Source: Candidatus Aenigmatarchaeota archaeon (GTDB lineage Archaea > Aenigmatarchaeota > Aenigmatarchaeia > QMZP01). Taken from it: 15,990 bases of DNA. The DNA is taken from positions 1 through 15,990 of the forward strand of contig VGIZ01000003.1 in assembly GCA_016867675.1 (NCBI GenBank). The letters run 5' to 3'. Made by a program: the position numbers and the translations under genes. Position 1 is the stretch's first letter. Every line of letters starts with the position of its first letter. Positions 5,913-11,926 of the stretch are shown piece after piece. The notes under the pieces are model-generated. The model worked only from the letters and a program-made list of their open reading frames with translations. It was not told the DNA's origin and did no database searches.

Positions 5913-7353
5913 CTAACCCTTTAACACTCCAATCGGCTCCATCCTGACAGCCTTGAGCGAGATGCCTGCGCCATGGACTGAGTTGATGACCTCTTCCACG
6001 TCCTTGTAGGCATGCGGGGCCTCCTCAGCGAGGACCTGGGGGTTGGTGGCGCGCGATTCTATGCCCTTCTTGAGCAGCTCTTCCTTTATCCTGCCGCCCC
6101 AGAACTTCCTTATTGCGCCTTCGCGGCTCATGGCCCGGCCTGCGCCGTGGCAGCTTGAGCCGAACGACTTCTCCATCGCAGCCTCGGTGCCCCTGAGTAT
6201 GTAGCTTGCAGTTCCCATCGTCCCAGCAATCAGGACAGGGATGTCAGGGAAAGACCTTGTCGCGCCCTTCCTGTGGACATAAACCTTTTTCTTCTCGCCG
6301 CCAATCTTGTGTTCCTCAAACTTTATGACGTTGTGGCAGATGGCATATACCGTGTGCATGTCCATCTCCTGCCACGTCCTGGCGAAGACCTGCTCGAAAG
6401 TCTCGCGAATCCACTGCGTCATTACGAGGCGGTTGGTGAAGGAGTAGTTGGTGGCAGCTTTCATCGCGGCGAAGAAGTCCTGGCCTTCCTTTGAATTCGC
6501 AGGCGCGCACGCCAGCTGCCTGTCAGGAATCCATATCTTGTATTTCCTGACCGCCTCCTCCTGCGACTTCAGGTAGTCTGTAGCCACCTGGTGGCCAAGC
6601 CCGCGCGAGCCGCAGTGCAGCATTATCATGACTTGGTCTTTCCTGTTTATGCCCAGCGAGCCTGAGAATTTCGGGTCAATCACGTCGCTGACGCGCTGCA
6701 TCTCAAGGAAGTGGTTGCCCGCGCCGAGCGTCCCGAGCTGGTCCCTTCCGCGCTGCTTCGCCAGGCTGCTGACCTTGGAAGGGTCCGCGCCCTCCATGCA
6801 GCCGTTGTCCTCTGTCCTCGCTATGTCCTCCTTGACGCCGTAGCCGTTCTTCACGCCCCATCCCATTCCCTTCACAAGGACTTCGTCAAGCTGGTCAGGC
6901 GTCAGCTTGAGCTTGCCGCGCGCGCCCACGCCGCATGGTATTGCCCTGAAAAGCGCATCAACAAGCTGCCTCATCTTCGGCCTGACCTCTGCCGCTGTCA
7001 GGTTGGTCCTTATCGCATTCACCCCGCAGTTTATGTCGAAGCCGCACAAACCCGAGGAGATTATCCCGTTTTCCGCATCAAAAGCGCTTACTGCACCCAT
7101 TGGAAGGCCGTTAAGGGGCAGACAACCGAATGCCGGTTGAATGCAATCCCCAGTGCATGTCTGGCAGGCCGACGACAGGCTCGATTACGCCTGGCAAACA
7201 TGCAACATTGGTCAGCTGGGTGATGGCGTCGTCTTCAAGCGCGCCAAAGACCGCGTCGTTGGCTATTATCTTGGCGTCGACGCGCATCTTGTCCCTGCTT
7301 CCCTTGGGCAGAAGCCACTCAAAATCGCTGATTCTTTTCACTTTTTCTTTCAT
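5913..7353 (-). CDS. rtcB: RNA-splicing ligase RtcB, coding region split by a 34-nt intron
   Basis: RtcB joins RNA 2',3'-cyclic phosphate and 5'-OH ends with GTP and Mn, and is the archaeal tRNA exon ligase. Exon 1 (7353-7146) and exon 2 (7111-5913) join to 1407 nt, or 468 residues, a normal length. Exon 1 ends PVVGLPDMHWG; exon 2 holds GFDINCGVN, with the metal-binding Cys, and CHGAGRAMSREGA, which carries the GMP-accepting His region. Without removal of 7112-7145 the frame stops after 80 residues; removal gives HWGYGLPMGAVSAF, matching the conserved HWGYGxPxG region. The start has a strong AAAGGAGGT ribosome site. It follows archease by 38 bases. A frameshifted pseudogene is less likely, because the gap has a precise BHB fold and everything else is intact. 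Confidence 0.88.
7112..7145 (-). other. BHB intron inside the rtcB coding sequence, 34 nt
   Basis: Reading the minus strand, exon bases GGGG (7151-7148) pair with CCCU (7117-7114) as the central helix. Bulge 1 is A-U|U (7147-7145) and bulge 2 is U-A|A (7113-7111). The inner helix is GCA/UGC (7144-7142/7120-7118), a two-by-two loop, then CAACCG/CGGUUG (7139-7134/7128-7123) closed by GCAUU. Cutting between the second and third base of each bulge removes exactly 34 nt and creates the Tyr codon U+AC of HWGYG. The outer helix is poor, so this is a relaxed BHB. The intron has no coding capacity. Confidence 0.85.
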
Positions 7354-7391: not shown

Positions 7392-7817
7392 TTAAATATC
7401 CAGCACCACAGCAGCCTTCCAACCCCGCTTGTCGTCGCCCTCCAGCCTGAAGTCGTGGTAAGTGACTGATTTTACGACGGTGAGGCTGTTCTTCGGCTTC
7501 GCCTCCTCGCCGTAGCACGTAGCTTTGAGCTTATTTCCATTTATCTTCACCTTGAAGGCGGAGAAGAACATGCTGTGTATGTCAACGAGCGCAATGACCT
7601 CGCCGAGCCAGTTGAAGAGCAGGTCCTGCATGTCCCTGCCCTCGACAGAGACCTCGATGCTGTCCTTCGGCTTCACGTTCCTGATAGAGCACATCACCGA
7701 GCTGAGCGCCAGCGCGGCGTTCTCAAAAAGCTCGCTGGCGCTGTGGCCGTATGCCTCGAACTTCACGTCGGACGTCGGCCCCTTGACGAACTTGTATTTC
7801 ATGGCTTCACCACTCAT
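7392..7817 (-). CDS. Archease (RtcB activator)
   Basis: Archease is a small protein that helps RtcB become guanylylated and turn over many times. The sequence matches the family: a short first strand, then SDVKFEAYGHSASELFENAALALSSVM, where the Asp is one of the conserved metal-site acids, LLFNWLGEVIALVD in the centre, and KSVTYHDFRLE near the end, with the terminal Asp in VVLDI. From the ATG at 7817 it has 141 residues, typical for the family, and this start overlaps the previous stop as ATGA. An alternative ATG at 7802, preceded by GGTGA, would give 136 residues and also fits. It lies immediately upstream of rtcB on the same strand, the classic partner arrangement. Confidence 0.92.
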   Translation of the reverse strand: MSGEAMKYKFVKGPTSDVKFEAYGHSASELFENAALALSSVMCSIRNVKPKDSIEVSVEGRDMQDLLFNWLGEVIALVDIHSMFFSAFKVKINGNKLKATCYGEEAKPKNSLTVVKSVTYHDFRLEGDDKRGWKAAVVLDI

Positions 7818-8428
7818 ATGATTGTGACCTCGCAATTGCACAGCCTCTTGAACTTCTCGGCGTCGGATTTGCTGCCTGTGATGACGCCGTAATGCATGGG
7901 CACGGCGGCCTTCGGCCTTATGTCCTCGTTGGCGGCTGCGGCCGCCTCCTCGGCTGTCATGGTGTATGTCCCTGAAACAGGCAGCAGCGCAATGTCAATG
8001 CTGCCCAGGCTTTTCATCTCGGGAATCCTGTCCGTGTCGCCGGCATGGTATATCCTTCTGCCGTCAATGGTGATGACATAGCCGACGCCCAGGCCCTTCG
8101 GGTGGTAGGGCTTGTTCCTGTTGTAGGCAGGAACGGCTTCTATGGCTATGTCGCCTATGACCTTCTGCCCGCCTGCAGAGATGACCGTCACGCCCTGCAG
8201 CTTTGCTTTGACGCCTGCCGGGCCGATTATGGTGGTGCTTTCCTTCCTCAGCCGCTCGACGGAATCCTCATCGCAGTGGTCAAAGTGCTCATGGGTTATC
8301 AGGATTATGTCCGCCGGGCCGCCCTTCGGCGCCTTGAACGGGTCTATGCAGATTGCCTTGCTCTCGTGCATTATCCTGAAGCCGCTGTGCCCGATGTGCT
8401 GGATTTCAATCCCTTCGATAACTGCCAT
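7814..8428 (-). CDS. Metallo-beta-lactamase-fold hydrolase (UPF0173-like)
   Basis: This 204-residue protein has the metal-binding motif ITHEHFDHCD (HxHxDH) near residue 50, preceded by the N-terminal IQHIGHSGFRI, and later HAGDTD and AVPMHYG, which supply the remaining metal ligands. This set is typical of the UPF0173/UlaG-like metal-dependent hydrolases. The substrate is unknown; given the neighbours aIF2-beta, archease and RtcB, an RNA-related role is possible but unproven. The ATG at 8428 follows GAGGAG by eight bases and fits the family N-terminus better than the frame's earlier possible start at 8446. Its stop overlaps the archease start by four bases, which suggests translational coupling. 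Confidence 0.82.
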   Translation of the reverse strand: MAVIEGIEIQHIGHSGFRIMHESKAICIDPFKAPKGGPADIILITHEHFDHCDEDSVERLRKESTTIIGPAGVKAKLQGVTVISAGGQKVIGDIAIEAVPAYNRNKPYHPKGLGVGYVITIDGRRIYHAGDTDRIPEMKSLGSIDIALLPVSGTYTMTAEEAAAAANEDIRPKAAVPMHYGVITGSKSDAEKFKRLCNCEVTII

Positions 8429-10524: not shown

Positions 10525-11115
10525 TTATCTTTTCCAAACGATGTATCCATTTACGTTGTTCCTTTCGTATACCTCTAGAATCTCTTCGCAGAATTTTTTC
10601 ATTTTATCATCATTCTTTATTTTTGCCAGTTCATACAGCCTTATGAACATTCTCTTGCCTGTCTCTGTTTGCTTGTAATTTTTCTTCTGGAAGTTATGCT
10701 GCGCACATAGTGTCTGGCCATTTTCTATTGTAGCTTCTCCACCAAGGTCTTTGGATATAATATGATCAGCGTGTATCTCTACACCATCCTCTCTGCCTTT
10801 TCCGCATCTCACACAACGATAATTATCTCGCTTGAATATTGCTTCCTTTTGTGCAGGCGTGAAATCTTCTAACTCTCTATTCTCTACAAAATTAGGATCA
10901 TATCTGTATACGCCTTTTGATATTTTGATAAGAAAACCTTCTTGAGATAGTTTTCTAATGGCTCTGTCGGGGTCACGAAAAACTTTACCTGTTCTTTTCT
11001 TGTATTCTTCAGTAACCCAATCAACTATTTCTGGATGCTTAATATCACGTTTCGGGTGATTCTTGAAGTATTCCATAATGAGGTTGTCCTGTTTGGTCTC
11101 CTCATCATTTGTCAT
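10525..11115 (-). CDS. HNH endonuclease with N-terminal winged helix, probable restriction enzyme
   Basis: This 196-residue protein has two parts. Residues about 20-75 (IKHPEIVDWVTEEYKKRTG ... LIKISKGVYRY) look like a winged-helix DNA-binding domain. Residues about 90-145 are an HNH nuclease, with CVRCGK, the HADHI segment carrying the catalytic His, and NGQTLCAQHNFQKKNY with the second Cys and the final His. HNH nucleases cut DNA with one metal ion. It starts 10 bases after the methyltransferase stop, which points to a type II restriction-modification pair that cuts unmodified DNA. Codons and base composition are much more AT-rich than the flanking genes, indicating transfer. A solitary homing-type nuclease is less likely given the partner. 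Confidence 0.8.
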   Translation of the reverse strand: MTNDEETKQDNLIMEYFKNHPKRDIKHPEIVDWVTEEYKKRTGKVFRDPDRAIRKLSQEGFLIKISKGVYRYDPNFVENRELEDFTPAQKEAIFKRDNYRCVRCGKGREDGVEIHADHIISKDLGGEATIENGQTLCAQHNFQKKNYKQTETGKRMFIRLYELAKIKNDDKMKKFCEEILEVYERNNVNGYIVWKR

Positions 11116-11125
11116 GATACCACTT

Positions 11126-11926
11126 CTACCTTTTAATTTCTATTTCATTAAGCTTTTTGTCTAATACTTTCGCTTCATTAATCAATCTTTTTTTAGCTAG
11201 AGCACAATATTCTTCATCAATATCAAGGCCTATAGACTTTCTCTTGTTCAACTGCGCGGCAATTAGTGTTGTTCCACTACCAACAAACGGGTCCAAAACA
11301 ACATCACCTACATAGCTAAACATTTTTATGCACCTCTTGGGTAGCTCTACTGGGAAAGGTGCTGGGTGACCAACTCTCTTTTTGCTCTCGCCGCTGAAAG
11401 TCCACATACCATTTGTCCAATCGATGAAATCTTTCTTGCTTATATCGGATTCTTTCTTTTCTTTTTTCTTCCATGTATCCTTGTAAAAAATTACTATAAC
11501 CTCAACGGGTGCTATAATATATGGGGCGCTTGCACTCATATAAGAGCCCCACGCTGTTCTTCTTGATATGTTGCCTTCATTCCAGATTATTGTGGAATGA
11601 TATTTGTATCCTATTTTCTTTGCGATCGTGGTAATGTCGGCGCAGACGCTTTGTTGTCCACCCTTGTTTTTGTCGAGCGGTATGTTCAAACACAATCTGC
11701 CATCAGACTTTAACCATTCAAAACATCTAGATAACCATTTCCTTGTGAATTCTAGGTATTCAGGATAGGATATTTCATCATTGTGGGTGTTGTACTTTAT
11801 ATCAACATTATATGGCGGCGAGGTCACTATCAAATCAACGCTTGATTTTTCGATGAAGTTCGTCGTAAGAACATCGTCTTGAATTATCTTCACGCCGTTG
11901 TGCTCAAAAAACACCTTTCCACCCAT
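11126..11926 (-). CDS. Site-specific DNA methyltransferase (N4-cytosine or N6-adenine, TSPPYN type)
   Basis: This 266-residue AdoMet-dependent DNA methyltransferase has the catalytic motif TSPPYN at residues 35-40 near the N-terminus and the AdoMet-binding motif DPFVGSGTT near residue 215. This is the order of the beta group of amino-methyltransferases. A Ser before PPY is most common in N4-cytosine enzymes but also occurs in N6-adenine ones, so the modified base is uncertain. The target-recognition region lies between the motifs (WNEGNISRRTAWGSYMSASAP and onward). The start has a TATA-like TTTAAATAAG about 20 bases upstream, consistent with a leaderless message. It is AT-rich like the HNH gene that follows, and the pair forms a probable acquired restriction-modification unit. 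Confidence 0.88.
   Translation of the reverse strand: MGGKVFFEHNGVKIIQDDVLTTNFIEKSSVDLIVTSPPYNVDIKYNTHNDEISYPEYLEFTRKWLSRCFEWLKSDGRLCLNIPLDKNKGGQQSVCADITTIAKKIGYKYHSTIIWNEGNISRRTAWGSYMSASAPYIIAPVEVIVIFYKDTWKKKEKKESDISKKDFIDWTNGMWTFSGESKKRVGHPAPFPVELPKRCIKMFSYVGDVVLDPFVGSGTTLIAAQLNKRKSIGLDIDEEYCALAKKRLINEAKVLDKKLNEIEIKR

Follow-up and report, generated by a model that had tools for sequence, protein, structure and literature searches.

Short introns that fold into a bulge-helix-bulge (BHB) motif are known from crenarchaeal cbf5, where, according to the available text of PMC2738675, they split the codon of the catalytic Asp and have been gained and lost by lineage. The same text has archaeal pre-mRNA splicing confirmed, as of 2009, for cbf5 alone, other putative introns of protein genes having been predicted, and the available part of a 2020 article gives cbf5 as the only further mRNA example reported (PMC7714728). 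That part also describes a BHB in Haloferax HVO_1309 which is likewise an mRNA substrate of the splicing endonuclease EndA, but which lies in the untranslated leader (5'-UTR) and not in coding sequence (PMC7714728); in what is available of PMC3491384, no mRNA intron was seen in Nanoarchaeum equitans. The BHB introns of archaeal tRNAs and rRNAs have the same motif as the element described here and presumably the same enzymes, but an intron in coding sequence must restore the frame upon excision. Inteins also insert at conserved motifs of rtcB, the gene of the tRNA-splicing ligase; they are, however, protein-spliced and hundreds of residues long, and 15–35 nt cannot encode one. Non-spliceosomal mRNA splicing further occurs in XBP1/HAC1, where IRE1 makes the cuts in a signal-dependent manner and where the exons of metazoan XBP1 are joined by RtcB; to our knowledge, the ligase's own message is not a substrate in that system.

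Here we describe a 34-nt element within rtcB of an Aenigmatarchaeota genome which, judged from sequence, is very probably an archaeal BHB intron of the rtcB pre-mRNA and belongs to a recurrent family of 15–35-nt mRNA introns. We found no report of introns in rtcB or EF-2, or of mRNA introns in Aenigmatarchaeota, in the titles and abstract openings of the open-licence PMC articles listed (some listings covering the top 20 of 21, 12 of 29 or 10 of 42 records; preprints and most subscription journals lie outside this search), in keeping with the original prediction, which knew of no intron in rtcB.

Anatomy and predicted fold of the split rtcB gene

The window, i.e. the whole stretch analysed, comprises 15,990 nt of contig VGIZ01000003.1 (G000:C3), from a host assembly (G000) of 772 kb in 156 contigs that is 64% complete. 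On its minus strand rtcB is written as two exons (7353-7146 and 7111-5913) with 34 nt between them:

7146..7353, minus strand: rtcB exon 1, start codon ATG up to base 1 of the HWGYG Tyr codon
7112..7145, minus strand: predicted BHB intron, 34 nt, the unique protein-best excision, identical to the BHB cuts
5913..7111, minus strand: rtcB exon 2, beginning with the Tyr-codon bases AC and ending at the stop (PF01139, 1.6e-142)
7392..7841, minus strand: archease, the RtcB cofactor, directly upstream of rtcB on the same strand (PF01951, 3.8e-35)

The interrupted codon is the Tyr (U^AC, the caret marking the interruption here and below) of PDMHWGYGLP, within the motif PDxHxGYG. Reading straight on from exon 1 gives an 80-aa ORF that stops at the TAA at 7113-7111, and the frame of exon 2 differs from that of exon 1 (34 = 3x11+1), so that the two are out of frame by one base, as had been claimed. 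The PF01139 match on exon 2 starts at profile position 26, and a short second match in exon 1 covers positions 1–25. Once joined, the exons give a 468-residue protein that aligns with RtcB of Pyrococcus horikoshii (1uc2) over residues 5-468 (E 2.9e-155). Elsewhere in the window (10525-11926, minus strand) an HNH endonuclease lies beside an N6/N4 DNA methylase, a possible restriction-modification pair.

To place the cuts we scored every excision of 18–74 nt from 132 starts (57 lengths, 7,524 trials) against intact relatives. The best score, 335, belongs to exactly 7145-7112, while the unspliced reading scores 100; the second-best excision (331) is shifted by one base, replaces Tyr by Phe and loses the BHB. 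The top-scoring excision cuts both 3-nt bulges between bases 2 and 3, the canonical BHB placement. The minimum-free-energy fold has the following elements:

7148..7151, minus strand: central helix, exon strand GGGG (Trp-Gly codons)
7145..7147, minus strand: 5' bulge AU^U, predicted cut 7146/7145
7142..7144, minus strand: inner helix GCA, pairing with 7118-7120
7134..7139, minus strand: hairpin stem CAACCG, pairing with 7123-7128
7129-7133, minus strand: hairpin loop GCAUU
7123..7128, minus strand: hairpin stem CGGUUG
7118..7120, minus strand: inner helix UGC
7114..7117, minus strand: central helix, intron strand CCCU
7111..7113, minus strand: 3' bulge UA^A, predicted cut 7112/7111, doubling as the TAA that ends the unspliced reading

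The original prediction had held that a single excision restores HWGYG, that protein conservation and RNA structure choose the same cuts, and that the message folds as GGGG/CCCU with bulges AUU and UAA, GCA/UGC and a CAACCG/CGGUUG hairpin. All three points stand: the best of the 7,524 trials has no tie, it coincides with the BHB cuts, and the fold described is the one of minimum free energy. Only 14 of the 7,524 excisions combine a central helix of 4 bp with three or more inner pairs (109 under a relaxed definition), so that chance agreement of the two lines of evidence would be about 0.2–0.4%, for this locus alone. The folding energy itself is ordinary (z -1.43; 17 of 200 shuffles fold equally well or better), and the weight rests on geometry and placement, not on energy. 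The canonical outer helix has 0 pairs at this intron, the minimum-free-energy fold showing two distal pairs. Features of the BHB class found here are thus the 4-bp central helix, two 3-nt bulges and an excision that restores the gene, along with a splicing endonuclease and RtcB in the host and compensatory pairing across related introns (see below).

Two other kinds of intervening sequence were considered and discarded. An intein is ruled out by a length of 34 nt, for which the earlier claim of "far too short" holds, and by the broken frame and the in-frame stop; a group I or II intron was rejected in view of the 34-nt length and of the lack of any Rfam match at gathering score within the window.

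Related putative introns in rtcB, EF-2 and cbf5

We searched 145 genomes for rtcB, of which 128 had a match (among the other 17 is the single-contig G092, 79% complete). The gene was read as DNA in 86 of the 128, G000 included, a set that took in genes with stops, breaks or odd starts together with many clean ones; the remaining 42 were judged from table rows, so that 19, the number of the 128 genomes of the class found to carry rtcB introns, is a minimum. No gene has more than two of the 25 introns, which lie at PDGH^ (12), at the Tyr of GYG (5), at GY^G (1), at GF/Y-DIN (3), at GG-I-G (1) and at DI-NCG (3), and two further ones at the GYG Tyr site were found on public contigs of 'archaeon ARS1178' (L080) and 'Nanoarchaeota archaeon' (L082). 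Aligning RtcB homologues at HWGYG and looking for introns in relatives had both been proposed with the original prediction; many homologues turn out to have the motif uninterrupted, and introns are present at the same and at neighbouring codons. Position and fold recur among relatives and the letters of the intron do not: a strict DNA pattern of the window intron, run over the 145 genomes, matched the window only.

Some of these introns are textbook BHBs, e.g. those of G063 (central helix AAGG/CCUU, 9 inner pairs) and G051 (UAGG/CCUA, 10 inner pairs). The shortest have 15 and 18 nt (G013, G110), and in G075 and G138 introns of 32 and 31 nt put the middle exon, as written, out of frame with both neighbours. 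Those at the PDGH site are less canonical, usually with 3 central pairs and, next to the 3' bulge, a mismatch that is mostly G.A; the coding sequence in these rows offers a possible outer helix, CCCG/CGGG, as in a relaxed BHB of its own type. Joining the exons gave a stop-free frame of 470–512 aa in 18 of the 19 loci tried, the other (L162) being cut by a contig end. Exhaustive scoring of 25 of the 27 rtcB introns put the BHB cut at the top, alone or in a tie, in 21, and in the remaining 4 a different cut scored one point more; the second introns of G013 and G110 were placed by hand and their geometry then checked.

Inteins and introns appear to share host genes here. In G110 (L170) and G013 (L154) rtcB apparently carries, close together, two BHB introns and an intein, the latter suggested by a long ORF that breaks at DIN^C. 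From ORF length only, inteins are likely in rtcB ORFs of about 900–1000 aa split near NCG in G025, G058, G073, G090, G096, G108, G114, G122, G124, G129, G144 and others.

Possible traces of the same interruption appear in the protein database, where a search with the 80-aa ORF of exon 1 returned 83 short RtcB N-termini. An intact continuation after PDxHxG is absent in 62 of the 83 (63 of 84 rows with the query), with the proviso that these sequences are known as protein only and that some may be contig ends; one, P0070, may derive from the window itself. P0002, which stands for 13 clustered sequences and is 96% identical, stops directly behind PDMHWGL, ten residues short of the end of the window ORF; the site would be shared while the insert, to judge from the reading, would differ. 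P0061 ends as exon 1 of L080 does and occurs on 7 contigs from four sources. Five others (P0005, P0040, P0045, P0066 and P0069) go past PDxHxG and end at GF(R/K), i.e. at the GF^D site.

EF-2 had a match in 141 genomes and was read as DNA in 19, of which 12 carry introns, 16 in all, three each in G014 and G121. They sit at AHI^DHGK (or similar), D^HGK, GK^TT, HVD^F, VD^TPGH and GDV^TR. The BHB cut was best or tied in all 10 of the 16 that were scored exhaustively, and the other six were placed by hand with their geometry checked afterwards. No EF-2 intron was found in the DNA read from G007, G041, G055 and G069, and the insert in G136 resembles an intein. EF-2 ORFs of 1213–1270 aa occur in G050, G051, G085, G136 and G143.

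The third host gene is cbf5, searched in 156 genomes of the phylum (11 of them outside the rtcB/EF-2 set; 134 with a match). In the 11 of these 134 read as DNA, two of them as references, three introns were found: 30 nt in G109 (CUCU/AGAG), 15 nt in G121 (CCUU/GAGG) and 15 nt in G136 (CUCU/AGAG), each with all 4 central pairs formed and each splitting the Asp codon of GTLDP after its first letter. As far as the available text of PMC2738675 goes, this is the position of the crenarchaeal cbf5 introns. A long insert lies downstream of the 15-nt intron in cbf5 of G121 (L224). Introns are present in both rtcB and EF-2 in G014, G063, G109 and G138, and G109 has them in all three genes. Two earlier ideas have to be given up at this point: rtcB is neither the sole nor a special host, as EF-2 and cbf5 of the same phylum carry such introns too, and cbf5 introns are not limited to Crenarchaeota, being present also in G109, G121 and G136.

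Compared with the crenarchaeal cbf5 type, then, the window intron lies in rtcB and not at the catalytic Asp codon of cbf5, and the group as a whole has rtcB and EF-2 as main hosts, belongs to another phylum, goes down to 15 nt, uses many sites and reaches two introns per gene (rtcB) or three (EF-2), its splicing being predicted. Among two control genes, rpoA1 (matched in 135 of the 145 genomes) and EF-1A (144 of 145), no intron-like insertion was seen among the matches listed, the EF-1A matches of the intron-bearing G014 and G109 not being above the cut-off. Within this sample the intron hosts are a subset of the conserved genes. Aenigmatarchaeota and some other DPANN-like MAGs appear to carry such 15–35-nt mRNA introns in codons of catalytic motifs, in rtcB and EF-2 and at times in cbf5.

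The 34 nt might instead stem from faulty assembly or sequencing, or be a recent insertion disabling a gene in decay. The source is a MAG, 64% complete, and breaks or stops with no intron-like insert do occur in such genes: a frame break around residues 156-190 in rtcB of G103 (L043), frame breaks in rpoA1 of G004 and G107, a frame break with lost residues in EF-1A of G127, a stop in EF-2 of G105, a frame break in EF-2 of G108 and a stop in cbf5 of G115; EF-1A of G138 has a TAG near a contig end, again with no such insert. Against an error or decay stand the introns that interrupt this same codon in other MAGs and in two public contigs, the short N-termini lacking an intact continuation (P0002 and P0061 among them) and the constraint on both exons. 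Compared with L074, the nearest row of the RtcB tree and one with no intron, codon positions 1, 2 and 3 of the exons differ by 21, 15 and 51%, and those of exon 1 alone by 20, 7 and 52%, a pattern of purifying selection on both, unlike that of a pseudogene. We therefore regard artefact or decay as highly improbable and retain a BHB intron as the explanation.

Co-variation and scatter of the putative introns

Pairing was assessed over 44 introns (27 in rtcB, 16 in EF-2 and 1 in cbf5; two cbf5 introns found later are outside the set), using a slide and a shuffle test in place of a covariance model because the loops do not align. The central helix has 158 of its 176 pairs formed, with 4/4 in 27 introns, 3/4 in 16 and 2/4 in one (L162). 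Sliding both cuts by 1–6 nt leaves 46–76 central pairs, and shuffled partners average 74.9 over all rows or 133.0 when the shuffling stays within a site; in both cases none of 20,000 shuffles reaches 158. These contrasts are somewhat inflated, tied protein scores having been resolved toward the BHB-fitting cut (the window had no tie). One EF-2 row, G121, had 0/4 central pairs at its first cut and was recut upon inspection. The inner stem runs on average for 6.2 contiguous bp, where the slid cuts give 0.34–1.16, and in 32 of the 44 introns the 5' bulge begins with AU. At the GYG site the intron strand mirrors the codons of the exon: GGGG/CCCU for HWG, AAGG/CCUU for HEG and UUGG/CCAG for HFG. 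The covariance check of the stem proposed with the original prediction thus comes out in its favour.

A hairpin lies in the bypass gap of phage T4 gene 60, and there is one within the gap here; ribosomes might then pass over the 34 nt, by bypassing or frameshifting, with no RNA splicing. A Tyr codon split U^AC, however, cannot be made by hops between whole matching codons, and the codon phase of the cut differs at other sites. Moreover, the insert length is a multiple of 3 in 18 of the 44, several of these with in-frame stops, and the pairing sets the ends of the gap in 3-nt bulges. Bypassing is in our view extremely improbable, and it is as BHB introns that these elements are treated below.

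On an RtcB tree of 105 rows, built by a quick method that left 30 of 102 inner branches open and with G013 and G110 outside it, the GYG introns (seven rows) need 7 changes, the PDGH introns 7 and the presence of any intron 15. Repeated gain, repeated loss or transfer may lie behind this scatter, which suggests that a single conserved ancestral intron is not its simplest reading.

Predicted splicing and self-dependency

The host has the enzymes for such a reaction. An EndA ORF on G000:C19 matches ARMAN-2 EndA (4fz2) over residues 24-406 (5.5e-103) and is of the epsilon2 type; ARMAN-type EndA has a broad substrate spectrum, according to the available parts of PMC7714728 and PMC12397907. Across the intron-bearing genomes the EndA ORFs are of about 200 aa, about 400 aa or both, with no link by eye between EndA architecture and intron presence. 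Four of the 11 tRNA matches in G000 are 103–110 nt long, and cmscan alignments place insertions in two tRNAs, L206 and L210, so that G000 seems to have other splicing substrates; four of the long tRNA candidates carry no intron in the ARAGORN annotation. L206 (G000:C8:5491-5593) has 103 nt and L210 (G000:C93:1618-1722) 105 nt; one of the two has about 31 nt inserted in its T arm, the other has two insertions of about 18 nt.

Cutting, ligation and the part of RtcB as ligase we infer from what can be read directly, namely gene anatomy, cut placement, recurrence, co-variation and the presence of the enzymes. The rtcB transcript would fold into the bulge-helix-bulge, and EndA would cleave both 3-nt bulges after their second base to yield ends with a 2',3'-cyclic phosphate and a 5'-OH. 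These ends RtcB, together with archease, would then join, which would restore the Tyr codon of PDxHxGYG. With the unspliced message yielding the 80-aa fragment only, making functional RtcB would require RtcB to be there already, a self-dependency. If splicing occurs, it would follow, as the original prediction had it, that RtcB probably ligates its own message, because PF01139 finds nothing in G000 but the two rtcB exons and there is no match to the RNA ligase PF09414, within the limits of a 64% complete assembly; in 156 contigs, a missing second rtcB or other ligase is weak evidence. PF09414 matches do occur in 7 of the 19 intron-bearing genomes (4 above the cut-off), and another ligase is conceivable in those.

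An intron in the gene of its own presumed ligase might, in addition to being spliced, be kept as a regulator, its splicing sensing RtcB/EndA capacity in a positive-feedback switch. The recurrence of rtcB introns, up to two in a gene, would fit such a role. On the other hand, no rtcB intron was found in 109 of the 128 rtcB genomes as examined, EF-2 and cbf5 have introns of the same kind and the intron letters are unconserved, so that a switch seems unlikely and the pattern looks more like tolerated insertion. A wider proposal, on which we are evenly divided, is that in Aenigmatarchaeota and in some other DPANN archaea recurrently gained and possibly mobile mRNA micro-introns of 15–35 nt enter the catalytic-motif codons of a few genes for RNA and translation functions (rtcB, EF-2 and cbf5) and not those of the equally conserved rpoA1 and EF-1A, their entry into rtcB making splicing self-dependent.

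The kind of intron is already known; what appears to be new is the presence of BHB mRNA introns in further genes and in a further phylum, with several per gene and with the ligase gene among the hosts. If these introns are spliced, gene callers truncate RtcB and EF-2 in this group, and rtcB would be a naturally occurring example of a splicing enzyme that relies on its own action. With the introns scattered over the RtcB tree, their gain and their choice of targets can be tested in a setting that has no spliceosome. Non-spliceosomal mRNA splicing would then be a recurrent feature of how genes are expressed in a large uncultured group of archaea.
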